Shown here piece by piece: positions 23,061 through 43,767 of a stretch of 64,000 nucleotides of DNA. A model generated the notes under the pieces. The model worked only from the letters and a program-made list of their open reading frames with translations, ran no database searches and was not told where the DNA came from. Both the position numbers and the translations under genes were made by a program. Positions within the stretch are counted from its first letter, which is position 1. Each line of letters opens with the position of its first letter. This stretch comes from Flavobacterium sp. I3-2 (lineage in GTDB: Bacteria > Bacteroidota > Bacteroidia > Flavobacteriales > Flavobacteriaceae), in assembly GCF_013389595.1 (NCBI RefSeq), contig NZ_CP058306.1:2604001-2668000 (forward strand), written 5' to 3'.

Positions 23061-23230
23061 ACGCACGTGGGGAAAAAATAAAGTCGAAACTTTATGATTA
23101 ACCAAAACTAAGCAACGCCTTTTTGATTTTTAAATTTAATAATAAAAATGAAATAGGCGATTGCGACAAAAAAAAACTACTTCGAGATTTACCTTTGCTC
23201 GCCATTGTTTCAAACTTTTGTTAACTGCAG
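23061..23230 (-). repeat. attC-like element E1 (left end decayed)
   Basis: Right half is normal and ends in GTTAACTGCAG. The middle is almost identical to E7 and E12 (AACGCCTTTTTGATTTT ... AAATTTAAT ... TAGGCGA). The left half lacks AAC and TTGGC. It is the last element in minus-strand order, where arrays usually decay. Confidence 0.65.
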
Positions 23231-23241
23231 TTGTAATATTA

Positions 23242-23877
23242 TTATCTTCCAATAATGTTTAATAAATCATTCGAAATTTCATTATTATTTTGCGAAAGTA
23301 AAAATCTTGCATTTTGAATTTCATTGTTTTCTAATGATAATAATCCTAATTGATAGTTAGCTTGTTCGATTTCGTAAACAGAATATTTTTTTGATTGATT
23401 TATAATTGATAAAAAGATTTCCTTGGCTTTCAGTTTATCTTTTTTAATTCCTAATCCAAATAAATAATGAAAGGCTAATTCAATCGGAAATATGTTATCA
23501 ATTTCAAAAACTTTATAAAGTAATTCGACGACTTTTGCATAATCACCTTTATCACGATAAATAGTTGATAAATTAAATGCAGCAGTACTTAAATTTTCTT
23601 TGATTAATTCGTTATAAAGTTCAATTGATTTGTTAATGTCTTTTTTACATCCAATTCCTTCTGATAGATAATTAGCAACTCTTATTTTACAATAATTATA
23701 ATGTGAACCTTCTAAATATGTCTCGAAAGCCTTTTCGAAACTTTCTTTAATTTCTAAATTATTTTCACGTATTAAACCTTCTTCGTAAACTTGTGCGATT
23801 AATAAAAAATCATCCTCAGATTTATCCTTTTTGATTAATAAATCATTCCAATCTTCAAAGGTTTTTATTTCTTTCAT
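23242..23877 (-). CDS. Cassette C1: TPR/Sel1-like repeat protein
   Basis: 211 residues of helical pairs: FEKAFETYLEGSHYNYCKIRVANYLSEG, IELYNELIKENLSTAAFNLS, YEIEQANYQLGLLSLENNE. The spacing of Ala, Leu, Gly and Tyr fits Sel1/TPR repeats, which mediate protein-protein contacts. It is the only gene of the cassette bounded by GTTAACTGCAG at 23220 and CTGCAGT-like n-AAC at 23909. The two ends match over about 18 bases with three mismatches, the longest terminal match in the array. No partner or catalytic domain is seen; function unknown. Confidence 0.7.
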   Translation of the reverse strand: MKEIKTFEDWNDLLIKKDKSEDDFLLIAQVYEEGLIRENNLEIKESFEKAFETYLEGSHYNYCKIRVANYLSEGIGCKKDINKSIELYNELIKENLSTAAFNLSTIYRDKGDYAKVVELLYKVFEIDNIFPIELAFHYLFGLGIKKDKLKAKEIFLSIINQSKKYSVYEIEQANYQLGLLSLENNEIQNARFLLSQNNNEISNDLLNIIGR

Positions 23878-23900
23878 TTACGAAAAGTTTTTTTACAATT

Positions 23901-24101
23901 GCAGTCAACGCCAGAGTAGCTTGGCGAAGAAGCGGTTTTGGAGAGCAAAACGTCCAACTCGCACCGACCGAAGCAAAACCGCTTGCGTTGATGCTAAATT
24001 ATAAAAAGAAAAGCGAAACCAAGCGATTTTTGCGAAATAAAAAGCACAAACTTTCAGCTTTGTACTTAATCCGCTCTTTTGCCAAACTGCATGTTATGTG
24101 C
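23901..24101 (-). repeat. attC-like element E2
   Basis: Begins GCAGTCAACG, outer stem AGCTTGGCGAAG / CTTTTGCCAAACT, inner CAAAACCGCTT arms, ends GTTATGTGC. Carries the loop word CTAAATTATAA. Confidence 0.75.
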
Positions 24102-24116
24102 TGGTTGATTGTTATT

Positions 24117-24494
24117 TTAGTTGATGAAAATATAATCTCGCTTAATTTTCTTTGAATTGTCAAGCTGTAAGAAATTCATTCCTTTTATTGCTATGTTTCC
24201 ATCAGGCGTTTTCATTTGCCAAGTCACTCGTAATGTGTCGTGATTTTCAGAAAAACCTGTACTTTCTGTTATCAATCCATTTCCAACTACAAGTTTTTCA
24301 TTTACTTGCATAATATTTTCGTAAATGTTCTCCAATCCGTGATGCTTTACAGCTTTATCACCTGGTTCATCAGCGTAAAATTCAGCAGAAGATGAATATA
24401 CTTTTTCAATCAGTTGTTTTCTTTCATCAGCGTTTGTTGTACTCCAAGCTTCAATATAGTCTTTTACGAATTTTTCTAAATCTGTTTTTACCAT
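24117..24494 (-). CDS. Cassette C2: SnoaL/NTF2-like protein
   Basis: 125 residues with the cone-shaped alpha+beta fold of the NTF2/SnoaL superfamily: an N-terminal helix FVKDYIEAWSTTNADERKQLIEKVYS, then strands including SENHDTLRVTWQMKTPDG. Members bind small hydrophobic ligands or act as isomerases, hydratases or immunity-like domains. No clear catalytic residue can be assigned. It is downstream of a Crp-family regulator gene in the same cassette, 71 bp apart, so regulation by that protein is plausible. Confidence 0.75.
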   Translation of the reverse strand: MVKTDLEKFVKDYIEAWSTTNADERKQLIEKVYSSSAEFYADEPGDKAVKHHGLENIYENIMQVNEKLVVGNGLITESTGFSENHDTLRVTWQMKTPDGNIAIKGMNFLQLDNSKKIKRDYIFIN

Positions 24495-24565
24495 TTTTTT
24501 TAATTTTAAAATTTTCAGTAAATTTCACAAAAATAGATTACTATTTACTGACACATTTGTGTCAA

Positions 24566-25159
24566 TTATTGAGATTGAGACAGTTTTTTTCGTATTCTTG
24601 TTAAGGTTTGCCTTTCTACACCTAAATAACTGCAAAGTTGCGTTATGCTTATTCGGTTGAAGAGTTGCGGATATTGATTAATGAAGTTAATGTATCGTTG
24701 TTCAGCATTTTGGTAAAGAAAACTTTCCAATCTTTGTTGTTGCAGTTTGAGTTTCGTTTCTACAATTAACCGTCCATATTTTTCAAATTTCGAGATTTCG
24801 TCATAAGCATTTTGCAAATGTTCTGTCGGAAAATTTATAATGGTGGAAGTTTCCAAACATTGAAAAGATAGAGGACTTGGTTTGTTGTTCACAAAGGAAG
24901 CATAATGAAATGTATATTCGTTTTCGGGAATGAAATATATATTTTTTTCGTTTCCAAAGCTATCCGTATGAAATGCCCGAATAAGTCCTTTTACTAAAAA
25001 ACCACCTTGTTTTTGAAGTTCTCCGGCTTTAATGTAAAAATCGTTTTTGTGAATTTTTGTTATGGTTAGTTTTTCGCTGAATTTTTTAAGTTCATTTTCG
25101 GTCAGTTCGGGACAAACACTTCTGATGTGGTTCAAATAAATTTCAATTTCTTCTGTCAT
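24566..25159 (-). CDS. Cassette C2: Crp/Fnr family transcriptional regulator
   Basis: 197 residues. The N-terminal cyclic-nucleotide-binding-like beta roll (ITKIHKNDFYIKAGELQKQGGFLVKGLIRAF) is followed by a long dimer helix and a winged-helix domain (QRYINFINQYPQLFNRISITQLCSYLGVERQTLTRIRKKL). Flavobacterial members of this group usually lack cAMP contacts, and I see no RxxS-type phosphate site. It lies upstream of the SnoaL-like gene and likely controls it. A second, differently sequenced Crp protein sits in cassette C5. Confidence 0.85.
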   Translation of the reverse strand: MTEEIEIYLNHIRSVCPELTENELKKFSEKLTITKIHKNDFYIKAGELQKQGGFLVKGLIRAFHTDSFGNEKNIYFIPENEYTFHYASFVNNKPSPLSFQCLETSTIINFPTEHLQNAYDEISKFEKYGRLIVETKLKLQQQRLESFLYQNAEQRYINFINQYPQLFNRISITQLCSYLGVERQTLTRIRKKLSQSQ

Positions 25160-25190
25160 TTGGTTTTATTCGTGGTTTTCGGGTCAACTT

Positions 25191-25388
25191 ATACATAATG
25201 TTTCGGTGCTTGACGTCAGTGGTGGAAATTGAAGCGAAAAGTTTCAATTTAGCGAGACTGTGCAAAAGCAAATTTTTATTTACTAAATTAAGAAAAAAAG
25301 CTAATGCTCACAGCATTGGCGGCATAAAAAGTACAAACGTTTAACTTAGCTGTTATTCCGATCTTTTGCCAAACTGCTTGTTATGTGA
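25191..25388 (-). repeat. attC-like element E3
   Basis: Starts ATACATAATG (AAT instead of AAC) and ends GTTATGTGATTA. Contains the repeated GAAAAGTTTCAATTTAGC word and an inner hairpin around ACTAAATTAAGAAAAA. The outer stem is weaker (TTGAC / GCCAA). Confidence 0.7.
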
Positions 25389-26186
25389 TTATTTGTTCAG
25401 CGTTCTTAATGCTTTTTTAGTGATGTATTTTGTTTCTTTGGTATTGCTTTCGGTTTCCCAACGCTTGCAAAGTTCCGTTATAAATTCGGGTTGTGTTTTA
25501 CTTGCGTCATTGAGCCAATTTCCAACGCTGTCCTGAACATATTTTGCTTTGTCCGACTTTAGCGGTTCCAAAATGGATAAAGCCAATTCCGGATTTTGTT
25601 TCAGTTCTTCAATGTGTTCGCACCAAACTCCACGAGGTCTTGTCGCTTCGGTTGTAAATCTTCGGATATTTTCGTCTTCGTTAGAAGTCCATTTGGAAAG
25701 AATTTCGATACTTTCGGTAAGATTTTTCGCAATTTTTGGTCTTACTGTCATCCAACAAATTTCTCTTACTCCAAAATGGTTGTCAGCCGAAAAAGGTTGG
25801 ATTTGTTTCAATGTTTCAGATATGTTTAGGTTTTCATTTTTTCCGATGGTGTAAGTTGCCCAACAACGAACAAGATCAGCATTATGGTTTGAAATAATTG
25901 CCAAGAAATTTTCATCTCTGTTTTGAGTTGTCAATTCAAAAAGTCCTGATCCGATGGCTTCGTTTATTGTATTTACGGTTTGTTTTTTGAGTTGGTCAAT
26001 TTTGTTGAGAATTGGCTTCAAATATTCAGTTCGGTTGGTTTGTTTTAGTAGATTTTCGAGCAAAATTTTTTGGTCAACAGCCAACCATTCTATAAGATTT
26101 GCAGTTTCGATTTGTCCCGAATTAATTTGTTGCAAAATATCGTTCGGTATATCTTTTGTCGAACGAGCTCCTTTTCTTTTTGTCAT
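25389..26186 (-). CDS. Cassette C3: AlkC/AlkD-type DNA alkylation repair HEAT protein
   Basis: 265 residues of HEAT-like repeats. The stretch IRRFTTEATRPRGVW followed by LSILEPLKSDKAKYVQDSVGNWLND is characteristic of the AlkC/AlkD DNA glycosylase superfamily, which excises alkylated bases without flipping them. The stop overlaps the cassette core region at 25389. Its ATG follows immediately the stop of the peroxiredoxin gene, so the two are co-transcribed. Activity is inferred from family only. Confidence 0.8.
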   Translation of the reverse strand: MTKRKGARSTKDIPNDILQQINSGQIETANLIEWLAVDQKILLENLLKQTNRTEYLKPILNKIDQLKKQTVNTINEAIGSGLFELTTQNRDENFLAIISNHNADLVRCWATYTIGKNENLNISETLKQIQPFSADNHFGVREICWMTVRPKIAKNLTESIEILSKWTSNEDENIRRFTTEATRPRGVWCEHIEELKQNPELALSILEPLKSDKAKYVQDSVGNWLNDASKTQPEFITELCKRWETESNTKETKYITKKALRTLNK

Positions 26187-26819
26187 TTATAATTGCTGTA
26201 TTAATTCGTCAATATTGATACGTTCCATATAATTGGCGTTTACAAATTTATAAATAATTGTTGCGTTTGAGTTCAAAACATAAACGGCAGGAATTGGTAA
26301 AACGTGGTTTTCTGTTTGATTTATTTTAAGTAAATCAATTCCTAAGTTTTCATAGTGAGAAATTACAAAGTCTTGAAGTTCAAAATCAATACCGACTTGT
26401 TTAGCCAAATCGTTGTTTTTATCGGATAAAATTTCAAATGAAATATGGTGTTGTTTCTGCCATTCAGAATTTGTAGTTTCAAGTTGAGGCGAAATCACAA
26501 TCAATCTTGTATTTTTAAATTGGTTGATTTTAGTTTGCAATGCTTGGATTTCCAAATTGCAATACGGACACCAACTTCCTCGTAAAAATGCAATTACGAT
26601 TTTTTCGTTTTCCAATAATTCTCTCAAGACAACTTTTTTGTTGTCAAAATTATTAAGCTCAAAATCAGGAAATTTATCACCAATATTCAAACTCTTGTTT
26701 TCGATTTGTTTTTCTTTCAAATCTTGAATTGATTTTTGAAATGCTTGTAACGTTTCCGAAGGAACTTGGGCAGTTAATTGTTTATTTAACTCGTCTATTT
26801 GTTTAGCTAAAATATCCAT
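26187..26819 (-). CDS. Cassette C3: peroxiredoxin-like AhpC/TSA protein
   Basis: Start at 26819 (MDILAKQIDELNKQL) is preferred; an 8-residue extension upstream looks non-coding. 210 residues. After an N-terminal coiled helix (residues 1-40) comes a thioredoxin fold: GDKFPDFELNN, then FLRGSWCPYCNLEIQAL with a CxxC motif, and IPAVYVLNSNATI containing the cis-Pro. The CPYC pair suggests thiol-dependent peroxide or disulfide chemistry. It is divergent from hxlR-type gene at 26914, the usual arrangement for a redox-sensing regulator and its target. Confidence 0.82.
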   Translation of the reverse strand: MDILAKQIDELNKQLTAQVPSETLQAFQKSIQDLKEKQIENKSLNIGDKFPDFELNNFDNKKVVLRELLENEKIVIAFLRGSWCPYCNLEIQALQTKINQFKNTRLIVISPQLETTNSEWQKQHHISFEILSDKNNDLAKQVGIDFELQDFVISHYENLGIDLLKINQTENHVLPIPAVYVLNSNATIIYKFVNANYMERINIDELIQQL

Positions 26820-26860
26820 ACTAAAATGTTTAATTTTGTACAAAGTTTAATAACTGTTTC

Positions 26861-26890
26861 GAGATAAACAATACCGCATATTTTTATCTC
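26861..26890. promoter_or_regulatory. Candidate HxlR operator
   Basis: GAGATAAA and its exact complement TTTATCTC are separated by 14 bases in the divergent region between the peroxiredoxin and the HxlR-type gene. A further GGGATAAAA half lies at 26894-26902. Operator role is inferred from symmetry and position. Confidence 0.45.
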
Positions 26891-26913
26891 TATGGGATAA
26901 AAAAGTCAATTTT

Positions 26914-27255
26914 ATGAAAACAAAGGAAGTAACAATAGAAGAAAAAATTTGTCCGTTAGAATTTGCTGTCAATGCAGTTAGCGGAAAGTGGAAAATCCCG
27001 ATAGTTTGGCAGATAAACGAAGGCAAAAAGCGTCCGAGTGAATTTTTGAAAGGCATCGGAAAAGTAGATAGGCGAGTGTTGAACCAACAGCTCAAAGAAA
27101 TGGAACAAATCGGGATTTTGACCAAATTCTCCTTTCCCGAACTTCCTCCACGTGTAGAATATTCGTTAACTCCAATTGGTGAAGAATTAGTGAAAGTTTT
27201 GTGGCAGTTAAATGATTGGGGTAAACTTTTGCTTGAAAAAAATGAAAATTTTTAA
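26914..27255 (+). CDS. Cassette C3: HxlR-family winged-helix regulator
   Basis: 113 residues. ICPLEFAVNAVSGKWKIPIVWQIN holds the conserved N-terminal Cys and the GKWKIPI helix of the HxlR/YodB/HypR family, followed by RRVLNQQLKEMEQIGILTK (recognition helix) and PPRVEYSLTPIGEEL (wing). Several family members sense quinones, aldehydes or disulfide stress through that Cys. It is transcribed against the array direction and must have its own promoter. The likely target is the divergent peroxiredoxin-alkylation repair pair. Confidence 0.87.
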   Translation: MKTKEVTIEEKICPLEFAVNAVSGKWKIPIVWQINEGKKRPSEFLKGIGKVDRRVLNQQLKEMEQIGILTKFSFPELPPRVEYSLTPIGEELVKVLWQLNDWGKLLLEKNENF

Positions 27256-27290
27256 ATCATTTCTTTTTGGCAAGAACGTTGTTTAAACGT

Positions 27291-27485
27291 ATCACATAAC
27301 GGTTAGAAGCTTTGCGAAGTAACGGTAAATCGAAGACGAAATTTTCAATTTAGCGACACAGTAAGCAAAAGCCAATTCATTGAATAAATTTAAGAAAAAA
27401 AATCAATGCAATTGGCTTTTTGCGACAAAAAAAGGAGAAACTTTCAATTTTTCTCTAAATCCGACATTTCGCCAATGTTATCTGC
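27291..27485 (-). repeat. attC-like element E4
   Basis: Starts ATCACATAACGG, which matches the other end of C3 (GTTATGTGAT at 25380). Outer arms AGCTTTGCGAAG / CATTTCGCCAA, inner hairpin AAAGCCAATT / AATTGGCTTT around an ATAAATTTAAG loop. Ends GTTATCTGC. Confidence 0.75.
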
Positions 27486-27490
27486 TGTTT

Positions 27491-28222
27491 TTATTTGCTT
27501 TCATTCCAATAATAGCTATCGGGGTAAATCCTTTGTCCGAATATTGCAGTACCTACTCTTATAATCGTTGCACCCTCCTCAATGGCTGTTTCCATATCGC
27601 CACTCATACCCATTGACAATTCCTGCATTTCTACGTTGGGAATATTTAAAGTAATAATTTACTGTTGAATATCTTTAAGCAATCGGAAACATTTACGGAC
27701 TTTTTCAGTTTCGGCACTAAACAGACCTATTGTCATTAAACCTTTTATTTTTAGTGTGTCCAACTGTGCTACTTGCTTTACTAATTCTATTGCATTATCG
27801 GGGCTTACACCAAATTTGCTTTTTTCTAAAGAAGTATTTACCTGTATCAATACTTCTATGGTTTTGTTTTCAAACTGTAACCGTTGGTGTAATTTTTCTG
27901 CCAAATCCAAACGGTCAAGCGACTGAATGCAGGACACGTTATATTTCAAAAGGTCTTTGATTTTGTTGGTCTGCAAATGCCCAATGAAATGATTGATGTG
28001 CGGAATTTCTTTTAACTCTTCGTACTTCTCTTTAAGTTCCTGTATCTTGTTTTCTGCTATTAGTGTATATCCTGCCTGTAATGCCATTTTGATACGTTCG
28101 ACAGGTACGGTTTTGGTTGCCAATAACAATTTTACTTCATTAGGATTTCTGTTGCTGTTGATGCAGGCATTATTTATCCGCTCACAAATGCTTTGAATAT
28201 TATTGATAATTTGTTCTTTCAT
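27491..28222 (-). pseudogene. Cassette C4: YggS-type PLP homeostasis protein with in-frame stop
   Basis: The YggS/PROSC family binds pyridoxal 5'-phosphate and buffers its supply. The frame reads NPNEVKLLLATKTVPVERI (PLP Lys in ATK), IGHLQTNKI, CIQSLDRLDLAEKL, VQVNTS-like IQVNTSLEKSKFGV, then meets TAA at 27659-27661 after LLKDIQQ. Beyond it the same frame continues through [16 protein letters not shown] and VGTAIFG, which bind the phosphate, to the true stop at 27491. One base change (AAA to TAA) therefore kills an otherwise 243-residue gene. The truncated product lacks the phosphate-binding end. A sequencing error cannot be excluded. Confidence 0.85.
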
Positions 28223-28243
28223 TCTTTTAGATTTATGAAAAGA

Positions 28244-28313
28244 GGTCGGGAATGGATTTGAACCACTGTAGAAGGTATTGCGTACCCTTCTCTAACCACT
28301 CGACCACCCGACC
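28244..28313 (-). tRNA. Cassette C4: degenerate tRNA-Cys(GCA)-like gene
   Basis: 70 bases fold as a tRNA: acceptor GGTCGGG / CCCGACC (7 bp), T arm AGTGG-TTCAAAT-CCATT, anticodon arm AGGGT-ACGCAAT-ACCTT with anticodon GCA, short variable region CTAC. The D arm GTCGAGTGGTTAGAGA pairs poorly, and position 33 is C, where U is almost universal. The overall sequence resembles tRNA-Cys. No CCA is encoded. It is probably a decaying tRNA copy or a tRNA-like RNA rather than the genome's working tRNA-Cys. Confidence 0.6.
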
Positions 28314-28352
28314 ATTTTTTAAAGGCGAACTGATTTAAGCCAGCCCATTTTG

Positions 28353-28799
28353 TTATTTCCACCAATAGTAATAATTGTGGTTTCCGTCATATTCAAAACC
28401 GCAACGTGGATATAATTTGTTGCCTATGTCGTTTGTCTTTTCGGTTTCAAGCATTAAACCGCAAGCGTCTGTTTCATCACACCATTGTTTTGCTCGGTCT
28501 ATCAATGCTACCGAAAGCCCTTTACCTCTGTAATCGGAGTGTACAAACAAATCACTCAATAGCCATTGTTTTGCTAATTTGATGTAATGATACAATTTGT
28601 ACAACTGTACAAAACCAACTGCTTTGCCGTCTGCATACACCACAAAAATGTTTGATTGGTCGTTGTCTAATCGTTCCTTGATGAACTGTTTACATTTTTC
28701 ATAATCGTTCGCTTGGCGGTAGAAAACCCGATAGAGGTTAAATAATTCCGCTGTTGTGTCTAAATCGTTTAGACCTATTTTTTTGATGTTGTACTCCAT
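28353..28799 (-). CDS. Cassette C4: GNAT family N-acetyltransferase
   Basis: 148 residues. The acetyl-CoA site is SDYRGKGLSVALIDRA (motif A, R-G-x-G-x-S) after the strand LSDLFVHSDY, and FQLYKLYHYI-type strands precede it. The C-terminal LYPRCGFEYDGNHNYYYWW completes the fold. Substrate unknown. It is divergent from a MocR regulator, whose operator (28843-28888) overlaps the shared promoter region, so control by MocR is likely. Confidence 0.85.
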   Translation of the reverse strand: MEYNIKKIGLNDLDTTAELFNLYRVFYRQANDYEKCKQFIKERLDNDQSNIFVVYADGKAVGFVQLYKLYHYIKLAKQWLLSDLFVHSDYRGKGLSVALIDRAKQWCDETDACGLMLETEKTNDIGNKLYPRCGFEYDGNHNYYYWWK

Positions 28800-28842
28800 T
28801 GTTTCTAATTATTTTTAAATGATATGACAAAATTAAATTTTA

Positions 28843-28888
28843 ATTGGACTATATTTGTAGTCCAATTTTTAAATAAAAGATAGTCCAG
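28843..28888 (+). promoter_or_regulatory. MocR operator overlapping the -7 promoter box
   Basis: ATTGGACTA (28843-28851) and TAGTCCAAT (28858-28866) form a perfect 9-bp palindrome. Its 6-base centre together with flanks gives TATATTTG (28850-28857), a flavobacterial TAnnTTTG -7 box. A third half site, TAGTCCAG, lies at 28881-28888 directly against the ATG at 28890. Paired inverted and direct half sites across a promoter are usual for MocR autoregulation; the binding itself is inferred. Confidence 0.65.
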
Positions 28889-28889
28889 A

Positions 28890-30332
28890 ATGTTGCCGTA
28901 TCAACATATCATCATTATAGAAAAAGAAAGTAAAGTTCCTGTTTACAGACAGATTGCTATTTCAATTATCAACGCTATCAGAAACGGCACTTTGAAAGCT
29001 GGAACACATTTATTGAGTAGTCGTGAGTTGGCTCGAATGTTACAAGTTCATAGAAAAACAGTTGTTTCGGCTTATGACGAATTACAATCACAAGAATGGA
29101 TAACAGTATATCCAAGAAAATATGTGATAGTAGCAGAAAATCTACCCGTACTAAAGCCAAAAAAATGGAATGAACCAACTGAAAAATTTTCTTATGAACA
29201 AGATTTTAAAATTCCTTTTCGGGTGGTTCGAGATGTTTTGAAAACTGATGATTCTGTTCCTGAAATTATTGTAGATGATGGGCATCCAGATGTTCGACTT
29301 TCTCCGATAAATGATTTGTTGAAAACATATCGTTCATTTACTTTCCGAAAATCTGCCATAAAAAAAGCCCATATCGGAACAACACAAGGAACATTGATGC
29401 TTAGGGAAGAGTTGACTAAACATTTGTCAGAAACAAGAGGATTAAATATTTCTGCTGATAATATTTTGATTACCCACGGTGCACAAATGAGTATTTATCT
29501 TTCGGCACGACTACTTTTAAATGAACACACAAACATTGTCGTAGCCAAGCCAAATTATCCTGTTGCAAACAAAACTTTTCAAGAAACGGGGGCGAAGCTT
29601 ATCGAAGTTAATATTGATGATAATGGAATTGATACTGATGAAATCGAGCAAATTTGTAAAAAGAAAAAAATTAATGCTGTTTATGTTGTTCCCCATCATC
29701 ATTATCCGACAACGGTTACTTTGAGCGTTGAACGAAGAATGAAATTACTTGAACTTTCAAAGAAGTTTTCGTTTGCCATTATCGAAGATGATTATGATTA
29801 CGATTATCATTATTCATCTTCGCCATATTTGCCTTTGGCAAGTGCAAATCACAATGGCAATGTGATTTATATTGGCTCTTTTTCTAAAATTTTAGACCCC
29901 GCTTTGCGAATGGGTTTTATGGTTGCTCCGAAAAATTTTATTGACCAATGTACCTCTTTCAGAAAAATTATTGACGTGGGCGGTGATGGATATATGCAAA
30001 ACGCATTAGCTACTTTGATAAAAGATGGCGAATTGAAAAGACATCTCAAAAAAGCTAAAAAATGTTACCACGAGCGTAGAGATTTTTTGGATAGTTTACT
30101 AAAAAATCAATTGTCAAAATATATAACCTATTCGTTGCCGTCTGGTGGAATGGCTGTTTGGATTACGTTTAACAAATCGTTTTCGGTAGATAAAATAGTG
30201 TCAAATCCGTTCTTTAAGATAGTTCGACTGGATTATGAATTGAATGCATTTCGTTTTGGATTTGCTTCAATGAATGAAGAAGAATTGCAATCTGCTGTCA
30301 ATGAGATAGAAAAGATAGTATTGAAAAGTTGA
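28890..30332 (+). CDS. Cassette C4: MocR-type GntR/aminotransferase regulator
   Basis: 480 residues. An N-terminal GntR winged helix (VPVYRQIAISIINAIRNGTLKAGTHLLSSRELARML ... VHRKTVVSAYDEL) is fused to a class I aminotransferase-like domain with PLP lysine 333 in GSFSKILDPALRMGF and the PNYP and HHHYP loops. MocR proteins (PdxR, GabR) sense PLP or PLP adducts. In this cassette it accompanies a GNAT enzyme and a YggS-type PLP-homeostasis gene, which suggests a PLP-related module, now damaged. Runs opposite to the array direction. Confidence 0.9.
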   Translation: MLPYQHIIIIEKESKVPVYRQIAISIINAIRNGTLKAGTHLLSSRELARMLQVHRKTVVSAYDELQSQEWITVYPRKYVIVAENLPVLKPKKWNEPTEKFSYEQDFKIPFRVVRDVLKTDDSVPEIIVDDGHPDVRLSPINDLLKTYRSFTFRKSAIKKAHIGTTQGTLMLREELTKHLSETRGLNISADNILITHGAQMSIYLSARLLLNEHTNIVVAKPNYPVANKTFQETGAKLIEVNIDDNGIDTDEIEQICKKKKINAVYVVPHHHYPTTVTLSVERRMKLLELSKKFSFAIIEDDYDYDYHYSSSPYLPLASANHNGNVIYIGSFSKILDPALRMGFMVAPKNFIDQCTSFRKIIDVGGDGYMQNALATLIKDGELKRHLKKAKKCYHERRDFLDSLLKNQLSKYITYSLPSGGMAVWITFNKSFSVDKIVSNPFFKIVRLDYELNAFRFGFASMNEEELQSAVNEIEKIVLKS

Positions 30333-30362
30333 CTTTTGATGCAGGACGGTTTTGGTAAAATT

Positions 30363-35069: not shown

Positions 35070-35076
35070 TAAAATG

Positions 35077-36775: not shown

Positions 36776-36802
36776 AATTTTTATGGTGTCTCAATTAAAT
36801 GA

Positions 36803-37530: not shown

Positions 37531-37547
37531 ATTTCATGTTTTGATAA

Positions 37548-37748
37548 TTGCGTATAACGTTGGACGTATTGGCAAAGGCGGGGAAATCGAAGCGAGAAGT
37601 TTCGATTTTGTACCGAGGCTAGCCAAAACGAATTTATATGAGATAAATTTAATAAAAAAACGAATATAATTCGTTTTTGGCGGTGAAAGAAGAACAAACT
37701 TTGAATTTAGCACTTTAGCCCCGCTTTTGGCAATATCTTGTTACCTGC
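37548..37748 (-). repeat. attC-like element E10
   Basis: Starts TTGCGTATAACG followed by TTGGACGTATTGGC, ends GTTACCTGCTGG. Two GAAACTTT-like words and AAATTTAATAAAAAAACG inside. Inner hairpin CAAAACGAATTTATAT / AATTCGTTTTTGG. Confidence 0.75.
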
Positions 37749-37760
37749 TGGCATTGTTTG

Positions 37761-38492
37761 TTATTTACCAAAAAGTTTGGCGAAAAAACTCTTTTTAGCT
37801 TGTTTTTCGATTCCCCAAAGTAGTTCGGATTCGTGACGTTTAGTTTTGTCAATATTTGGTCCAAATTTTCCACACGCAAAACCACTTTGAATTGGTTTGT
37901 TTCTTAAATCTGCAATAACAAAATTATCTGGAAGTGATAATGCAAAGTTTTTCAAAGTTGAATCGTTAGATTGTCTTGCGTTTTCAAGTTCCGTAAAACT
38001 GTTGTTTTTACTCCAAATATCCATTACAACTTTTTCGTGAATTATGTCAAGGTTGGACTTGTTTCCGTTTTTTCCAAATTCATTTACGTGATCAATAAAT
38101 TGCGTTAGATTGTCAGAATGTTTAATAATTACAGTAGGGTCGTGGCATACATAAAATACATTTCCCCAATCTCCATTTTTACTTACGTCTAAAATCCAAA
38201 AGTTTCCAAATCCATCACCTGCAAGTTGTTCAGAATGAGGAAAAAACTCTTCAAATCCGAATTGTTCAATTCCGTCAAAAGTTATTTCTTCAACTCCGTA
38301 AAATTCAAAACCACGAGCGAATTTTAATAATTCTTTAATTTCTAAAGGAATATATTTTGAAGGAAACCTTTCGGCTAAGGTATTTATCTGTTCTTCAGTT
38401 AAACCTTCTAATAGTTGCACTTGATATTCCTCATTATCTTCTGAAATATACTTTTCGTTTAAGATTGATTTTAATTTTTCTAATGGAGTCAT
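37761..38492 (-). CDS. Cassette C11: SMI1/KNR4 (SUKH) family protein
   Basis: 243 residues. SUKH signature in LTEEQINTLAERFPSKYIPLEIKELLKFARGFEFYGVEEI and ADGFGNFWILDVSKNG-like DGFGNFWILD, ending with a basic tail AKKSFFAKLFGK. The extra C-terminal region (DKTKRHESELLWGIEKQ) is not part of the core fold. Likely an immunity-type protein for a polymorphic toxin, here carried alone in a cassette with exact terminal complement GTTACCTGC / GCAGGTAAC. Confidence 0.8.
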   Translation of the reverse strand: MTPLEKLKSILNEKYISEDNEEYQVQLLEGLTEEQINTLAERFPSKYIPLEIKELLKFARGFEFYGVEEITFDGIEQFGFEEFFPHSEQLAGDGFGNFWILDVSKNGDWGNVFYVCHDPTVIIKHSDNLTQFIDHVNEFGKNGNKSNLDIIHEKVVMDIWSKNNSFTELENARQSNDSTLKNFALSLPDNFVIADLRNKPIQSGFACGKFGPNIDKTKRHESELLWGIEKQAKKSFFAKLFGK

Positions 38493-38528
38493 ATTTTTCT
38501 TTCTAAGTTGCGTTTTTTCAGAAATGCT

Positions 38529-38627
38529 TGCAGGTAACGTTGGACGTATTGGCGAAGTTGCGAGAAAATATATATAACAGTTGCGTTTAGTTATGCTCGC
38601 AATTTTGCCAAGCCGATGTTAGCTGAC
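38529..38627 (-). repeat. attC-like element E11 (short form)
   Basis: TGCAGGTAACG, then ATTGGCGAAGTTGCGAG pairing with CTCGCAATTTTGCCAA around a short ATATATAACAGTTGCG loop, then GCCGATGTTAGCTGAC. Nearly identical to E14 and E16. Confidence 0.85.
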
Positions 38628-39536
38628 GTTTTTTTCTTCATCAAGTTTTAATTCCATTATTGGTAAAAATCTGTCTTTTATAGAACTTTCAAATTGTCCG
38701 ATTTTGAAAAACCCGAATTTATTGTAGAATTTTTCAGTGTTTGGCTCAGAGTCTAATGTAATCCTGTTTATTCCAATGTTTCTTACCTCGTTTAAAAAAT
38801 GTTCCATCAATACTTTACCAAATCCTTTTCCTATATATTGGGGAAGAAGAAACAAGTTGTCGAGTTTGACACTTTTTTCGTCGGTTGTAAAGTAAGAATA
38901 ATAACCGATTGGCTCATTTTCGACAATTAGCTTATACACTTGGTTCTCCTCAATATATTTTTTACTTACAATCAACAAATGTTCCCATTCTGTTAAAACT
39001 TCTTCCGAAAAACCCCAATAAGCTTTAGACTTTTTGGTTATTTGAGTTAGTATCTCATTGTCTGTTAATTCTGCTTTTTGAATTTTCATCTTTTTTTGTG
39101 GAATTATTTGCTCAAGATGATGTTCTAAATGTTCAATATAATCACAGATTAAAAATTCAATTGTTAAATCACTTCTGTCTTTTGTTTTGCATTTATTTTT
39201 CAGATTCTCAACGTTAATACTTTTAATAATGTGGACTAAATGTTTGTTGTAATTTGTCCAAAAGTCAATTAAATGTTGTTTGTCAATATTTTGGTAATTA
39301 CTTTTTTCAACCCAGTTATTTTGGTCGTACCAAATAGTTGGAGAATTTTCAAATTGAGCTCGTAAAAATCTTTGATGATTATTTGTTGCACTATCAATTA
39401 AGTGTCCTAAAATTTCTTTTTTACTCCATTTTTCTGGACTTGATTTAAAACTAAAATTTAGTTCATTTATTTCAGTCAGTTTTGGAGGAATAATTTCAAT
39501 TAGTTCTTCAAGTCTATCAATTACTTTATGTATCAT
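38619..39536 (-). CDS. Cassette C12: DinB-like/GNAT fusion protein
   Basis: 305 residues. The first half (residues 1-150) is a four-helix DinB/YfiT-type domain: KWSKKEILGHLIDSATNNHQRFLRA (first metal-type His in GHLIDS) and YIEHLEHHLEQI (two further His). The second half is a GNAT acetyltransferase with acetyl-CoA site QYIGKGFGKVLMEHFL and NKFGFFKIG. I know both domains separately; this fusion may channel thiol-transfer and acetylation but that is speculation. The TAA stop sits in the element core (AGCTAAC). Confidence 0.75.
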   Translation of the reverse strand: MIHKVIDRLEELIEIIPPKLTEINELNFSFKSSPEKWSKKEILGHLIDSATNNHQRFLRAQFENSPTIWYDQNNWVEKSNYQNIDKQHLIDFWTNYNKHLVHIIKSINVENLKNKCKTKDRSDLTIEFLICDYIEHLEHHLEQIIPQKKMKIQKAELTDNEILTQITKKSKAYWGFSEEVLTEWEHLLIVSKKYIEENQVYKLIVENEPIGYYSYFTTDEKSVKLDNLFLLPQYIGKGFGKVLMEHFLNEVRNIGINRITLDSEPNTEKFYNKFGFFKIGQFESSIKDRFLPIMELKLDEEKNVS

Positions 39537-39551
39537 TTCGGGTTCTAAAAT

Positions 39552-39747
39552 GTCAGCTAACGTTGGACGTATTGGCGAAGTTGCGAGAAAATAAAGCTAA
39601 AACTTTACGATTAACCAAAACTAAGCAACGCCTTTTTGATTTTTAAATTTAATAATGAAAAATAAAAATAGGCGAGTGCGACAAAAAATAAAACCAACTT
39701 CGAGATTTGCCTTTATTCGCCATTGCGCCAAACTTGTGTTAGCCGTT
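39552..39747 (-). repeat. attC-like element E12
   Basis: Starts GTCAGCTAAC, an exact 10-base complement of GTTAGCTGAC at 38618. TATTGGCGAAGTTGCG / CATTGCGCCAA stem; long middle shared with E1 and E7. Ends GTTAGCCGTTC. Confidence 0.85.
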
Positions 39748-40188
39748 CGTTTTTATTTTATTGATTATTTTTTCGTTCCATTTCAGGTCGTTTGGAGCAA
39801 CGATTAAAACATTAAAATTATATTTTTCGCTTTCAATTTCGACACCTTTTGAATCATCAATATGTAGGTCAAAGTTAAAAGCTTTTGGATATTTTGAAGA
39901 ATAAATTTTTAACGATTCAAGTTTCTTTTTATTTTCAGTTTGATTTACGATTCTATTAACTTTAATATTATAACACCAAAATGTTAAACGAATTTTGTTT
40001 TTACTCCTAAAGGAAGTCGTATAAATATTAACTTTATGATTTTCTTCTTGTAAAATTGAGATAAGTTGTTTTGTACCTTTTCTTAATTTTTCAACTTTAA
40101 AAAGTTTAGTTTTCCAATTCTCTTTTTCGGTTTCGAATTCATTTCCATTTGGAATTAAAGTACTATCTAAATCAAAACTTATATTCAT
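39739..40188 (-). CDS. Cassette C13: HAD-superfamily hydrolase-like protein
   Basis: 149 residues. Motif I ISFDLDSTL at residues 3-11 (DxDST), motif II around IYTTS (S/T-containing strand), and motif IV LHIDDSKG near residue 110. This is a short HAD without a cap domain, so a small phosphatase or phosphotransferase is likely; substrate unknown. The stop TAA lies in the core GGCTAAC at the cassette end, and the ends ACGGCTAAC and GTTAGCCGT are exact complements. Confidence 0.75.
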   Translation of the reverse strand: MNISFDLDSTLIPNGNEFETEKENWKTKLFKVEKLRKGTKQLISILQEENHKVNIYTTSFRSKNKIRLTFWCYNIKVNRIVNQTENKKKLESLKIYSSKYPKAFNFDLHIDDSKGVEIESEKYNFNVLIVAPNDLKWNEKIINKIKTNG

Positions 40189-40208
40189 TAATTTCTGTCT
40201 TTTAAAAT

Positions 40209-40409
40209 GACGGCTAACGGGCCGCGTATTGGCGATAGTGGCGGATTAGAAAGCCTAAACTTTCAATCTAGCACTAAGCTAAGCAACAGCCTTTTATTAT
40301 TTTCTAAATTTATGAAAAAAGGAAATATAAAATGCTGTTGCGACAAAAAAAGGAGAAATTTTCAATTTCTGCCTTATCCCGCCATTTCGCCAATACGATG
40401 TTATGCGTA
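40209..40409 (-). repeat. attC-like element E13
   Basis: Starts GACGGCTAACGGG, then GTATTGGCGATAG with CATTTCGCCAATAC, middle shared with E6 (AACAGCCTTTTATTATTTT). Ends GTTATGCGTAGG. Confidence 0.8.
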
Positions 40410-40412
40410 GGT

Positions 40413-40682
40413 TTATTTAAAGAAACGCTTTATTTCGTAATATTTAATTAACCAAATTTCGTTATCGTCCTTATACCATAAATTTGTTACACCTCCTAAT
40501 TCAGTAAACTTACCAAATTGTGGTTGATTACCTGTTTCATATTGAATTTCTCGGGCTCCAATAGTTTCTAGATACTTAATCAATTCTTCGTTTTCTACTT
40601 CGATCAGATCTTTGTTTAGTTCTTCTTCTGTTAGAAAAGATTCTATTATCTGAATTTCTTGTTTAATTTTTTCTAAACTCAT
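40413..40682 (-). CDS. Cassette C14: small unrecognised protein downstream of HEPN gene
   Basis: 89 residues. A helical N-terminus (LEKIKQEIQIIESFLTEEELNKDLIEVENEELIKYLETIG) and a beta C-terminus (LGGVTNLWYKDDNEIWLIKYYEIKRFF). Starts 9 bp after the HEPN gene, so co-transcribed. Could be a partner of the HEPN protein, as antitoxins often follow or precede HEPN toxins; there is no sequence proof of that. Confidence 0.6.
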   Translation of the reverse strand: MSLEKIKQEIQIIESFLTEEELNKDLIEVENEELIKYLETIGAREIQYETGNQPQFGKFTELGGVTNLWYKDDNEIWLIKYYEIKRFFK

Positions 40683-40691
40683 ATTTTTAAT

Positions 40692-41465
40692 TTATTGTGG
40701 TTTATTTGGACTTAAATACATTAAATAATGTAATCTTAAATGACACTTTTCGTTGTATATTTTTTCATCTTTAACTATCCATTTATAAATATTTGGATAT
40801 AAAAACTCTAATATGTTAAATGCTGAAAGCCAAAATGCTGAACCGAAATCTTGAAATATAATAGTTTTAGAATTTTTATTACTTTTTGAAAGTAAAAATT
40901 CTCCAGCCTCTATAAATTCTAATATTTCGTATTTTTTATAAATATTAATAAGTGATTTTTTAGACTTTTTACTTTTATGAGCTACATAATTCCTTATGAT
41001 ATAAAATTCATCAATTTTATTTTTAGCTTCATTATTAATTTTTAAAAAAGGATTGTATTCATCTACAAGAACTTTTTTCGATATGGTTTTTAAGTTTGAA
41101 GCATTTTTCAAATCAAAGTAATTTAAACCATTCAAATATGCAAAACATTCGTCAGTAGATATTTTTTTTGGTAATTCTAAGTTTAAAGTTTCTGACAATT
41201 TTGTTGTATCATTTTTCAATGTTTCACTTATCATTTTTTCAATATACCATTCCCAATCACAAATTGATTTTATAGTAAAAGCTTCGATAATTTCTGATAT
41301 TTCATATCTAGTATATAATTTATCTTGTAACATTATTACCTTTGAAAATAAGAATTCGGCTTGTGAATGAATCCTGGCAATGTACATTATTGTATATTGA
41401 TATCCTATTTCAGAAAATTCTTTAATGGATCTCAATTCTTTAATTTCTTCCTCAGTGATTTCCAT
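40692..41465 (-). CDS. Cassette C14: HEPN-domain protein
   Basis: 257 residues, nearly all helical. The catalytic signature Rx4-6H of HEPN ribonucleases appears as IRNYVAHK (R, four residues, H) near residue 170, after a helix containing FYIIR and preceded by LDEYNPFLKINNEAKNKI. HEPN toxins cleave RNA and occur in toxin-antitoxin and anti-phage modules. The protein resembles RiboL-PSP/MAE-type HEPN proteins but is not assigned to one family. Single promoterless cassette context; ends GTTATGCGTA and TACACATAAC match with one difference. Confidence 0.65.
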   Translation of the reverse strand: MEITEEEIKELRSIKEFSEIGYQYTIMYIARIHSQAEFLFSKVIMLQDKLYTRYEISEIIEAFTIKSICDWEWYIEKMISETLKNDTTKLSETLNLELPKKISTDECFAYLNGLNYFDLKNASNLKTISKKVLVDEYNPFLKINNEAKNKIDEFYIIRNYVAHKSKKSKKSLINIYKKYEILEFIEAGEFLLSKSNKNSKTIIFQDFGSAFWLSAFNILEFLYPNIYKWIVKDEKIYNEKCHLRLHYLMYLSPNKPQ

Positions 41466-41481
41466 ACTCTTTGTGAAAAAT

Positions 41482-41581
41482 TACACATAACGTTGGACGT
41501 ATTGGCGAAGTTGCGAGAAAATATAGATAACAGTTGCGTTTAGTTATGCTCGCAATTTTGCCAATACGATGTTGTACGAAG
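41482..41581 (-). repeat. attC-like element E14 (short form), part of exact duplication
   Basis: TACACATAACG then ATTGGCGAAGTTGCGAG / CTCGCAATTTTGCCAA, ending ACGATGTTGTACGAAG. From AAC at 41489 it is identical to E16. Confidence 0.88.
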
Positions 41582-41922
41582 TTTTTACTTGAACAGTTTT
41601 GGACTCCTTTCCATATAAAATAAGTTTAAATTATTGCGCTAAATCCCCGATTTGCGAACGTCATTTAAACTTATGTTTGGTAAATATAAGAATCTTGTTG
41701 TTTTAAATTAATGAAAAACAGTCAATTACTTGACTTTGTCATTTTTTTTCATTAACTTGTCTAAGCTTTTTAGCGTTTCGCTTTGAAAACGAGTTTTCAG
41801 CAAAATCTTTTGCAAAGCTTAGCAGGCAAAATAATCCTTATTTTTTGCCTTTAAAACAACTCCTTCTTATTAAAATTACCAAACTTTTATTCGGAAAGTA
41901 CGTCCTAAAATTGCGTACAACG
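41489..41922 (-). repeat. Exact 434-bp direct repeat, copy 1
   Basis: Identical base for base to 42789-43222 by eye. It spans short element E14 and the complete non-coding cassette C15, and starts and ends at AACG on the plus strand (CGTT on the gene strand), the predicted crossover core. Confidence 0.93.
41582..41912 (-). ncRNA. Cassette C15: non-coding, highly palindromic cassette
   Basis: No open frame longer than about 30 codons. Instead four inverted structures follow each other: TAAGTTTAAAT / ATTTAAACTTA (41621-41673, enclosing a second helix CGC-AAATC / GATTT-GCG); TTAATGAAAA / TTTTCATTAA (41708-41755, enclosing AGTCAA-TTAC-TTGACT); a closing stem CTAAGCTTT / AAAGCTTAG with three inner hairpins (41761-41822); and AGGCAAAA / TTTTGCCT (41824-41850). 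Structured RNA or structured DNA is inferred; type is uncertain. Confidence 0.5.
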
Positions 41923-42112
41923 GGCCGCGGCTTGGCGATAGTGCGGGCTTGGATTGAGCGAAAGTTCAATTCAGACCGAAACTGAGCCAAAGCTGTGAGC
42001 CTTTTGGTAAATTTAATAAAAAAACAAAAGCAAACAGCTTTTGGCGGGAAATTAGGCGAGAAGTTCAATTTTGCTCTTAACCCCGCATTTCGTCAAGCCG
42101 ATGTTGTACGAC
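41913..42112 (-). repeat. attC-like element E15
   Basis: Starts GCGTACAACGGG, stem GCGGCTTGGCGATAG / CATTTCGTCAAGCCG, middle shared with E9. Ends GTTGTACGAC. Confidence 0.8.
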
Positions 42113-42116
42113 GTTT

Positions 42117-42776
42117 TTATTTTTTAATTATTATATTCTGTGGCAATTTATCTCGCTTTAAAAATCCACAAATTTTATTATCCGGAGTTAATTGATTGTA
42201 ATCTAACTTTATATAAGGTCTCGCTCCATCATTTGGATTGAACTTTTCTGATAAGTATGATTTCTCTTCATCACTCAATTCCCTGGCTGTACCATCTATA
42301 TCAATGAAAATGTATTCAAATTTTTCTTGATTTATTTTTGCCATTTCTGGCGTTTTATTATACTTTATTTCGATAAATGAATCATAAGTTCTTGGGTCAG
42401 TTTGTATTTTAATAGTTCCCCAATCAAAATTTGTTTTTCTTGTTGTAATTAATGAATTTAAAAGCTTTCGATATTCATTTTCACAAAACTCAATATAATT
42501 GATAATATAATCTTTATAATCTATATTATTAGGTTTATAAATTTCTTTTAAATATTCAATTTCAATATAAATATTAACAGATTTTAATTTTCTATTTTTG
42601 TAGTAATAAATAATTTCAATTGGAATATTGATATTTGTTTTAGCTTTTTGTAATAATGACTTATATTCAATATTATTTATTTTATGTGTAGAGTTAAATT
42701 CAAAAGCATTTGTAAGGTTATCCTTTGTAAAAACTATATTGCCGTATTCAGTGTTTATTGATGAGATTGTCTTCAT
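42117..42776 (-). CDS. Cassette C16: unrecognised 219-residue protein
   Basis: Two-part appearance: an N-terminal region (INTEYGNIVFTKDNLTNAFEF ... KLKSVNIYIEIEYLKEIYKP) and a C-terminal alpha+beta region with YIFIDIDGTARELSDEEKS. DIDGT looks HAD-like (DxDGT) but sits mid-protein and the other HAD motifs are not seen, so I do not assign it. Cassette ends GTTGTACGAC and GTCGTACAAC are exact 10-base complements. Confidence 0.6.
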   Translation of the reverse strand: MKTISSINTEYGNIVFTKDNLTNAFEFNSTHKINNIEYKSLLQKAKTNINIPIEIIYYYKNRKLKSVNIYIEIEYLKEIYKPNNIDYKDYIINYIEFCENEYRKLLNSLITTRKTNFDWGTIKIQTDPRTYDSFIEIKYNKTPEMAKINQEKFEYIFIDIDGTARELSDEEKSYLSEKFNPNDGARPYIKLDYNQLTPDNKICGFLKRDKLPQNIIIKK

Positions 42777-42781
42777 AAAAT

Positions 42782-42881
42782 GTCGTACAACGTTGGACGT
42801 ATTGGCGAAGTTGCGAGAAAATATAGATAACAGTTGCGTTTAGTTATGCTCGCAATTTTGCCAATACGATGTTGTACGAAG
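42782..42881 (-). repeat. attC-like element E16 (short form), second copy
   Basis: Same as E14 from 42789 onward; preceded by GTCGTAC from C16 instead of TACACAT. Confidence 0.88.
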
Positions 42882-43222
42882 TTTTTACTTGAACAGTTTT
42901 GGACTCCTTTCCATATAAAATAAGTTTAAATTATTGCGCTAAATCCCCGATTTGCGAACGTCATTTAAACTTATGTTTGGTAAATATAAGAATCTTGTTG
43001 TTTTAAATTAATGAAAAACAGTCAATTACTTGACTTTGTCATTTTTTTTCATTAACTTGTCTAAGCTTTTTAGCGTTTCGCTTTGAAAACGAGTTTTCAG
43101 CAAAATCTTTTGCAAAGCTTAGCAGGCAAAATAATCCTTATTTTTTGCCTTTAAAACAACTCCTTCTTATTAAAATTACCAAACTTTTATTCGGAAAGTA
43201 CGTCCTAAAATTGCGTACAACG
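42789..43222 (-). repeat. Exact 434-bp direct repeat, copy 2
   Basis: Offset of exactly 1,300 bp from copy 1. It carries E16 and the second non-coding cassette C17. Absence of any difference implies recent duplication. Confidence 0.93.
42882..43212 (-). ncRNA. Cassette C17: second copy of non-coding palindromic cassette
   Basis: Identical to 41582-41912, with the same four palindromes (for example the closing stem CTAAGCTTT / AAAGCTTAG at 43061-43122). Confidence 0.5.
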
Positions 43223-43411
43223 CGCCGCAGCTTTGCGAAGTGCGGGAATTTCACAAAACAAAGTTTGAAGAAATTCCAAAACACGAGCAAAACATTTTGG
43301 CTTTTGTAAATTTAATATTTTTTACAAAACGAAATGTATTTGCGACTTAAAAAGCCAAAACTTAAAAAAAAGCCTTTACACCGCATTTTGCAAAACTGAT
43401 GTTACATGTAG
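43213..43411 (-). repeat. attC-like element E17, first element of the array in gene direction
   Basis: Starts GCGTACAACG, stem CAGCTTTGCGAAGTGCGG / CCGCATTTTGCAAAACTG, inner GTAAATTTAATATTTTTTAC hairpin, ends GTTACATGTAG. Confidence 0.78.
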
Positions 43412-43767
43412 TAAAAGTACATAAAAATTGATTTCTATTTGAACGTCAAGAACTTCCGAAAAGTTTCAAAACGAATTTCATTTTTTTCTGATTTAACGAT
43501 TCAATTTCAAAACTAAAATTTTTCAATCTGAGTTATTTCATTGCGTTTACAGTTTTCGATTTGATTTCTTTTTCAGTTTTCGATTTAATTTGTTTCAATT
43601 TCTTTTTAAAACATTTTAATTCGTCAACTTAAAAACAAGATTTTTCGTAATGTTTTTCTTAAAAATAGAATTTTTCAAAGTTCAGTTTTCACGATATTTT
43701 GCTTCAATAATTTCAGAATATTCAGAAAAAAATTGAAGCACTAAATTTCACTTTAATTACATGTAAC
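43412..43767 (-). pseudogene. Cassette C18: degraded, no intact gene
   Basis: About 350 bases with ends GTTACATGTA (43401) and TACATGTAAC (43758-43767), a 10-base exact complement. Minus-strand frames show short coding-like pieces (FSEYSEIIEAKYREN; KKKLKQIKSKTEKEIKSKT) broken by stops. An internal tandem TTTTCGATTT(G/A)ATTT repeat lies around 43555-43595. Beyond 43767 there is no further attC-like element, so this marks the array's 5' edge. Confidence 0.5.

Follow-up and report, generated by a model that had tools for sequence, protein, structure and literature searches.

An integron-like cassette array without an adjoining recombinase in Flavobacterium sp. I3-2 and its probable link to a recombinase-bearing array on the same chromosome

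How does a long run of unrelated genes, each bounded by a palindromic element, come to be arranged in one direction on a Flavobacterium chromosome with no integrase beside it? The window, by which we mean the whole 64,000-nucleotide stretch analyzed here, is host chromosome 2604001-2668000 of Flavobacterium sp. I3-2 (contig NZ_CP058306.1; the genome is a single contig of 3.55 Mb), and the array in question lies at window positions 23,061 to 43,767. Integrons are major gene-capture platforms, and the region is, in all probability, a cassette array of an integron-type cassette mechanism. An earlier note had already proposed an integron cassette array lacking an integrase (CALIN); the present analysis supports the first part of that proposal and modifies the second.

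Cassette boundaries and core matching

Read on the minus strand, the window array holds 18 attC-like sites of 93 to 197 bases. Sixteen have both ends and two, E12 (cut at about 33,294) and E18 (cut at 23,220), lack the right end. The earlier count of 17 full elements and one half, with palindromes of 93-202 bases, thus stands in its total, single strand, and lower length bound, and is otherwise replaced. The AAC and GTT ends of all 18 elements were set by eye on the minus strand from 45,000 to 22,900, before any test. Right cores begin GTT[AG] in 14 of 16 cases, the exceptions E11 and E16 reading ATTA, and the left side of E13 has AGC in place of AAC. When 16 of the 18 sites are aligned (E4, a repeat of E2, and E12 were left out), the ends around AAC and GTT are conserved together with a TTGGC-type stem; the paired stem ends and the unequal stem-core spacing on the two sides that had been described are both present. 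The largest open reading frame (ORF; at least 60 aa) lies on the array strand in 13 of the 17 bounded cassettes, on the opposite strand in one, and is absent from three, in agreement with the nearly uniform orientation reported before.

The start and end cores of an integron cassette derive from one circular site, and complementarity is therefore expected between the two ends of one cassette and not between the two sides of a palindrome. In 16 window cassettes, compared at the eight positions that follow GTT, the cores match within the cassette at 93/128 positions (shuffled partners: mean 54.5, standard deviation 5.4, maximum 81; 0 of 100,000 shuffles reached 93), and the match across one palindrome is merely 61/128. 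This count left out W0, whose cores match at 7/8 by eye, and the stretch between E12 and E13. The same holds for the larger main array described below, with 335/416 within its 52 cassettes versus 180.4 for shuffled partners (standard deviation 9.5, maximum 218 in 20,000 shuffles) and 188/424 across palindromes. As a positive control, a single complete class 1 cassette was tested, aadA2 on a Raoultella plasmid, and its cores match end to end at 12 of 12 bases. As cores match within cassettes and not across palindromes, the junction is placed at G^TT, and the pattern fits circular cassettes joined at that point. One-way tandem cassettes with one site each and a G^TT joint are also the arrangement of canonical integrons. 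The identical cassettes W1 and W3 are bounded at the same point.

The features are listed below in window coordinates, with sites numbered E and cassettes W; M denotes main-array cassettes.

43767-43905, minus: attI-like site and leader; G^TT at 43767; 42-bp block at 43859-43900, exact, twice in genome
43402-43766, minus: cassette W0, without long ORF; 93% identical to M5
43214-43410, minus: attC-like site E1
42872-43220, minus: cassette W1, non-coding, body 339 bp; 99.4-99.7% to M1, M7, M17, M25; 100% to W3
42784-42880, minus: attC-like site E2, short (93 bases)
42104-42790, minus: cassette W2, 219-aa ORF without Pfam match
41914-42112, minus: attC-like site E3
41572-41920, minus: cassette W3, copy of W1
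41484-41580, minus: attC-like site E4, E2 type
40401-41490, minus: cassette W4, 257-aa ORF (HEPN_Apea, below cut-off) and 89-aa ORF
40211-40409, minus: attC-like site E5, L-arm pairs 10/10
39739-40217, minus: cassette W5, 149-aa ORF
39554-39747, minus: attC-like site E6, mosaic, E2-type right end
38619-39560, minus: cassette W6, 305-aa ORF with GNAT acetyltransferase and DinB_2 domains
38531-38627, minus: attC-like site E7, mosaic
37741-38537, minus: cassette W7, SMI1_KNR4 (SUKH-1) protein; 95.9% identity to M28 over 787 bp
37551-37749, minus: attC-like site E8, possibly mosaic
36993-37557, minus: cassette W8, 175-aa ORF without Pfam match
36803-37001, minus: attC-like site E9
35168-36809, minus: cassette W9, 535-aa fused AriAB (PARIS); PADLOC 459 bits; Pfam DUF4435 and AAA_21
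35078-35176, minus: attC-like site E10, short (95 bases)
33950-35084, minus: cassette W10, 269-aa and 114-aa ORFs without Pfam match; end cores 2/8
33765-33958, minus: attC-like site E11, ATT at junction
33295-33771, minus: cassette W11, 79-aa ORF
33270-33303, minus: truncated site E12, left end only
32300-33269, minus: E12-E13 remnant without start core; 122-aa ORF
32101-32299, minus: attC-like site E13, left core AGC
30519-32107, minus: cassette W13, cNMP-binding (Crp-like) and DJ-1/PfpI ORFs; end cores 7/8
30364-30527, minus: attC-like site E14, L arms weak
27478-30370, minus: cassette W14, opposite-strand GntR-aminotransferase ORF, GNAT acetyltransferase, tRNA-Cys, 187-aa ORF
27293-27486, minus: attC-like site E15, L arms weak
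25381-27299, minus: cassette W15, AhpC/TSA and DNA_alkylation ORFs; end cores 7/8
25192-25389, minus: attC-like site E16, ATT at junction, L arms weak
24094-25198, minus: cassette W16, cNMP-binding ORF and 125-aa ORF; end cores 4/8
23902-24102, minus: attC-like site E17
23221-23908, minus: cassette W17, Sel1-repeat protein
23061-23229, minus: truncated last site E18

The main array, the attI-like sites, and site folding

With at least two attC-like sites and no PF00589 match at E <= 0.001 in the window (the nearest match in the genome is at 2730481), the window array has the makeup of a CALIN. Additional insight is gained when it is placed into the context of the whole genome. A DNA search with E5 (best 40 of 148 candidates) identified at least 26 places, with 5 in the window, 2 at 3.22 Mb, and 19 on the minus strand at 2.35-2.40 Mb. 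The last group belongs to a main array of 53 sites over 50 kb, whose sites were taken from an nhmmer chain and then parsed by a script favouring AAC and GTT near the expected places. An ORF lies on the array strand in 47 of its 53 cassettes, on the opposite strand in 1, and in neither orientation in 5. At its head is a divergent tyrosine recombinase gene (host chromosome 2403846-2404919, 358 aa), so that the main array, and not the window array, has an adjoining recombinase. Taken together, the main array and this gene appear to be a complete integron.

A 42-bp block links the two loci. It occurs exactly twice in the genome at 0 mismatches, at places about 244 kb apart, with no further copy at up to 3 mismatches: in the leader between the recombinase gene and the first main-array cassette, and at window 43,859-43,900, where it precedes the G^TT junction at 43,767 and then W0 (the ORF beyond is 349 aa, at 43,927-44,976). 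The block and the junction ahead of W0 indicate an attI-like site that belongs to the window array itself, and for this reason the array is not a plain CALIN. The region's end at 43,767, as given in the earlier note, is confirmed as a coordinate and is reinterpreted as the attI-like junction, with one extra cassette (43,766-43,402) ahead of the first element. Likewise, the reported lack of an integrase holds for the window; at another place on the chromosome there is a predicted complete integron with sites of this type. An AT-rich motif precedes the first junction found in 21 of 30 relatives' arrays versus 1 of 121 internal sites; it was picked after viewing the sequences, and the nine misses, some of which plainly missed the first cassette, stay in the 30.

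Cassette bodies are shared between the two arrays (M1, M7, M17, and M25 with W1 and W3 at 99.4-99.7%; M28 with W7 at 95.9% over 787 bp; M5 with W0 at 93%), from which it follows that units were moved or copied between platforms some 244 kb apart. M28 and W7 have a common body with different site types at the end. Copies also occur within the main array, where M11 equals M39, M31 equals M32, M22 and M29 are 99.8% identical, and M19 and M51 are 96.2% identical.

The sites of the main array were further compared at the level of folding. A purine follows GTT in 53/53 and a pyrimidine precedes AAC in 53/53; the parser had favoured GTT, not the purine. The L arms form 458/530 Watson-Crick pairs versus a shuffled-partner mean of 337.3 (maximum 373), and of six registers compared, good pairing was found only in the three with a right spacer 4 bases longer than the left. 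At the 2/6-base spacing the window sites give 111/160 pairs, with E14, E15, and E16 at merely 3/10 each. In the circular form, bottom strand, an R stem of at least 7 pairs is found in 51/53 main-array sites and an L stem of at least 8 pairs in 47/53, with a mean fold energy 8 standard deviations below mononucleotide shuffles; once the core is taken from the neighbouring cassette, which is the state inside the array, the R stem is found in only 18/53. RNAalifold recovered the 8-pair L stem alone, and among linear single-site folds E2 has a z-score of -4.1 and E10 shows no excess. The fold of a canonical integron site (R stem, unpaired spacer, L stem, variable terminus) is thus present in silico, and the common R/L stem architecture that the earlier note had proposed looking for was found in most of the 53 sites.

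The reading that we consider most probable is that cassettes are, or were at insertion, circles with one attC-like site each. The site would fold single-stranded into an outer R stem (GTTRNNNG/CNNNYAAC), an unpaired spacer (2 versus 6 bases), an L stem, and a long terminal structure, and a tyrosine recombinase, likely the 358-aa protein beside the main array, would insert the circle, through a G^TT joint, at the attI-like site (43,767) or at another attC, leaving a TT-core at the cassette start and a matching core at its end. The window array would be a further integron platform that has no recombinase gene of its own; it would have started from a copied attI leader, have traded cassettes with the main array, and be losing sites in the direction of its far end. 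This proposal draws on what can be read from the DNA: where the cassettes are bounded, how their cores match, the covariation of the L arms, the copied units, the presence of two attI-like leaders, and the linkage of recombinase and array in relatives. From these we infer single-strand recombination, action in trans, and present activity.

A third cluster, at host chromosome 3218086-3226467 on the plus strand, comprises six degenerate matches to the hidden Markov model (HMM) of the elements. No clean cassette chain was found in this interval, and we read the cluster as decayed.

The recombinase family and its relatives in Bacteroidota

The recombinase scores 174.6 bits against the IntI model TIGR02249 (cut-off 265), and no protein in the host genome exceeds that cut-off. 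Its best-scoring model is NCBIfam NF040815 (XerA), at 188 bits with a cut-off of 220, so that it falls short of XerA as well. An extra N-terminal domain is present, and the IntI-specific insertion is absent: the motif spacing is 65-66 aa in 28/28 genus proteins (30 were fetched and 2 left out as interrupted) and 65-70 aa in 11/11 array-linked proteins elsewhere, versus 107 aa in 20/20 IntI. On these comparisons, the protein is best described as a predicted enzyme of IntI/XerA-like type that has no IntI-specific insertion and carries a further domain at its N-terminus. It is conceivable that a Xer/XerA-type recombinase was recruited for cassette arrays independently of IntI, and the spacing and the low TIGR02249 score favor such a convergent origin, as does a quick tree in which IntI forms one clade apart from the Bacteroidota proteins (named Flavobacterium proteins are placed among the genus proteins). 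We nevertheless consider it rather unlikely, as an approximately unbiased (AU) test does not reject IntI and the array-linked proteins as one clade (p 0.853), the constrained tree being 39 log units better than the free one, as a C-terminal SPLD motif, and in some proteins a QNQ motif, is common to these recombinases and IntI, and as the first Foldseek match in the PDB is IntI4 (2a3v), with XerA close behind. According to the available text of PMC8138268, the insertion is not fully conserved in the integron-like subgroup and is nonetheless essential for function; the insertion-less members of that subgroup may include relatives of the recombinases described here.

Similar recombinases are widespread. 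Among 121 genus genomes, a near full-length homologue at 47-53% identity is present in at least 10 besides the host, and many more hold one at 33-42%. In the genus, 20 stretches were fetched on the 5' side and 19 on the 3' side, with 1 further upstream in genome G022 and then 4 more 3'; the choice followed list rank and the room left on the contig and was not random. They were searched with a detector of stem and core links that needs no likeness to the window elements; a link is any matching pair, not a cassette. Of all the genus 3' flanks, 19 are at least 5.8 kb long, and of these 12 have at least 2 links and 14 have at least 1 link on the recombinase strand. On the 5' side an array was found in G022 only (9 links, opposite strand), which is host-like; one other flank has a single link, equal to its shuffle. 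At 80 named loci, among the matches listed, 36 links share the strand of the recombinase and 1 does not, and shuffled sequences gave 0; the recombinase ORF was found at 79 of the 80. Where named loci extend at least 3 kb downstream, a link is present in 11/21 from Bacteroidota (7 with at least 2) versus 0/24 from other or unstated phyla. The linked loci include Flavobacterium enshiense, F. aciduliphilum, Seonamhaeicola, Winogradskyella, and Algibacter, and those of Algoriphagus, Aquiflexum, and Cyclobacterium have one link each. Most of the 19 genus loci, and some loci in other genera of Bacteroidia, thus appear to have a relative of the recombinase next to an array of similar kind. The Bacteroidota integron subfamily suggested earlier is borne out to the extent that a matching recombinase and arrays were found in relatives; the tyrosine recombinase for which the earlier note proposed a search beside the elements in other Bacteroidota is likewise there, without the IntI-type extra domain named in that proposal.

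At E <= 1e-70 the family is found in 148/295 class genomes and 91/155 genera. Canonical IntI (TIGR02249) is above cut-off in 105/395 phylum genomes; at E <= 1e-60, among the matches listed, it occurs in 107 genomes, 1 of them in the host's class and none in its genus. The 16 flanks of 8 canonical-IntI phylum genomes gave stray links or sites only and no clear arrays, and were thus unusable as a positive control.

As a separate observation, three genus genomes (G110, G112, G113) have a second, shorter recombinase ORF of 312-324 aa, about 2-22 kb from the array-type one on the same contig and on the opposite strand.

Alternative readings, comparison with known systems, and cargo

Long palindromes in many copies could also represent miniature inverted-repeat transposable elements (MITEs), repetitive extragenic palindromes (REPs), or transposon-like units with terminal inverted repeats, with no cassette mechanism involved. 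This is very improbable: the 53 main and 18 window sites each run one way, outer cores differ between units yet match within them, and the main array is headed by a recombinase gene and an attI-like leader. The pattern expected of such repeats, scattered copies that lack cassette structure, was not found, and core matching together with one-way orientation led us to reject such repeats and plain transposon units. Far more serious, at slightly below an even chance, is the possibility that the window array is no longer active. It would then be a remnant, a CALIN in decay; its attI-like leader would stem from a duplication, and its present changes would reflect only homologous recombination and deletion between repeats. 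The missing neighbor recombinase, the truncation of E12 and E18, the mutated cores of E11 and E16 (where the junction G is lost) and of E13, the weaker L-arm pairing than in the main array, and the mosaic sites E6-E8 would all be expected of such a remnant. Against it, cores of cassettes between E1 and E10 still match at 6-7 of 8, the 42-bp attI block is unchanged, and W1, W3, and W7 are near-identical (95.9-99.7%) to main-array units, which makes the exchange recent. We prefer to see in the window array a second platform, one that still took up cassettes in the recent past and is now in decay towards the far end; that it is still served in trans by the distant recombinase is about as probable as that it is not. 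The sites E6-E8, with E2-type right ends, may mark deletions between neighboring sites.

Several observations weigh against an integron-type mechanism or narrow its reach. The mechanism is proposed here from sequence comparison, with no excision, circle, or integration observed. The cores of W10 and W16 match poorly end to end, two parsed main-array cassettes have core matches of 2/8 and 4/8, and the mosaicism of E6-E8 looks better suited to deletion or homologous recombination than to recombinase action. Only 2/53 main-array right cores are GTTRRRY (the earlier note had called the window cores looser than this consensus), and in the window E11, E16, and the left side of E13 depart even from the looser form. 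The bottom strand is more stable in 34/53 sites, with little difference between the strands, and the recombinase is without the insertion that PMC8138268, in its available text, calls essential. In the genus, G061 and G026 have element-HMM matches only (G061 also one link on the wrong strand), and no link was found in 3/19 of the 3' flanks, namely G080, one of two in G112, and G099; the G080 and G112 flanks had no HMM match either, and G099 lay outside the HMM scan. Four of the 11 linked named loci have a single link. At class level, where 14 of 20 further flanks fetched reach 2.3 kb, a link on the recombinase strand is present in 3/14, with at least 2 in 1 and none on the other strand, from which it would seem that either linkage outside the family is patchy or the detector is tuned too narrowly.

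The system resembles the sedentary chromosomal integrons of Vibrio type in its head-to-tail, one-way cassettes, G^TT junction, R and L stems with unequal spacers, attI-like head, divergent recombinase by the main array, and abundance of cargo of unknown function. It differs in the absent IntI insertion, the extra N-terminal domain, GTTRNNNG instead of GTTRRRY cores, and the presence of two attI-like platforms with one recombinase of this family in the genome. Integrons with a reversed integrase occur in Treponema, and most array-bearing relatives similarly have the array downstream of the recombinase on the same strand, unlike the host genome and G022, where the two are divergent. From XerA recombinases, whose model nonetheless fits the protein best, it is set apart by the extra N-terminal domain and the linkage to cassette arrays. 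The window array is like a CALIN, as described in the available text of PMC9024848, in having attC-like sites without an adjoining recombinase, and unlike one in its attI-like start and in the near-identical cassettes in a predicted complete integron of the same genome. We file the system as an apparent integron variant, which passes the boundary, core-matching, and folding tests and fails on the IntI insertion and the GTTRRRY core.

Bacteroidota are among the integron-bearing phyla in the text available from PMC8618304, and PMC9024848, in its available part, cites an earlier survey that gave Bacteroidetes with In0 only and itself names one complete integron in Bacteroidetes proper, that of Salinibacter ruber. 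In the accessible parts of two further sources, the extra domain is a defining IntI character and IntegronFinder recognizes integrases by the IntI-specific domain (PMC9668308), and attC models were built for 11 taxa, with no Bacteroidota among them (PMC8352920). A family without the domain would thus be missed. In a literature search of titles and abstract beginnings (few subscription papers, no bioRxiv), no Flavobacterium integrons and no integron integrases without the extra domain were found among the entries listed; as most subscription papers and all bioRxiv preprints lie beyond that coverage, this is weak evidence of novelty. The chances seem evenly balanced that Bacteroidia possess an overlooked integron lineage of their own, in which an insertion-less recombinase joins folded attC-like sites to its own attI class-wide, and that one recombinase here serves two platforms about 244 kb apart. 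If so, the question of why IntI has its extra domain would become testable, since folded sites seem to be handled here by enzymes that lack it, and a large pool of cargo would be added, a PARIS-type defence gene included; the extent would be set by the fraction of class genomes with a recombinase relative that also have arrays.

The predicted window cargo comprises fused AriAB (PARIS), SUKH-1, GNAT acetyltransferases, Crp-like regulators, AhpC/TSA, and a DNA-alkylation-repair protein, and several cassette ORFs have no match. The PARIS-type fused AriAB gene (ORF 35168-36775) makes up a single cassette; a PADLOC scan of 18 window proteins gave, among the matches listed, one weak match besides it. 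An Rfam scan of the window at gathering scores found no match, with one chance-level match in the W1 stretch. The non-coding W1 unit has at least 6 copies in the genome, and its middle (43030-43150) has a closing stem and three hairpins (z -2.5). When a 430-base query of W1 and E2 was compared with 299 genus genomes (best two candidates per genome), partial matches were obtained in at least 7 others, 6 in the W1 middle (75-85%) and 1 at the site end, which suggests that the W1 middle may encode an RNA of unknown kind. A predicted tRNA-Cys gene lies at 28242-28313, inside W14.

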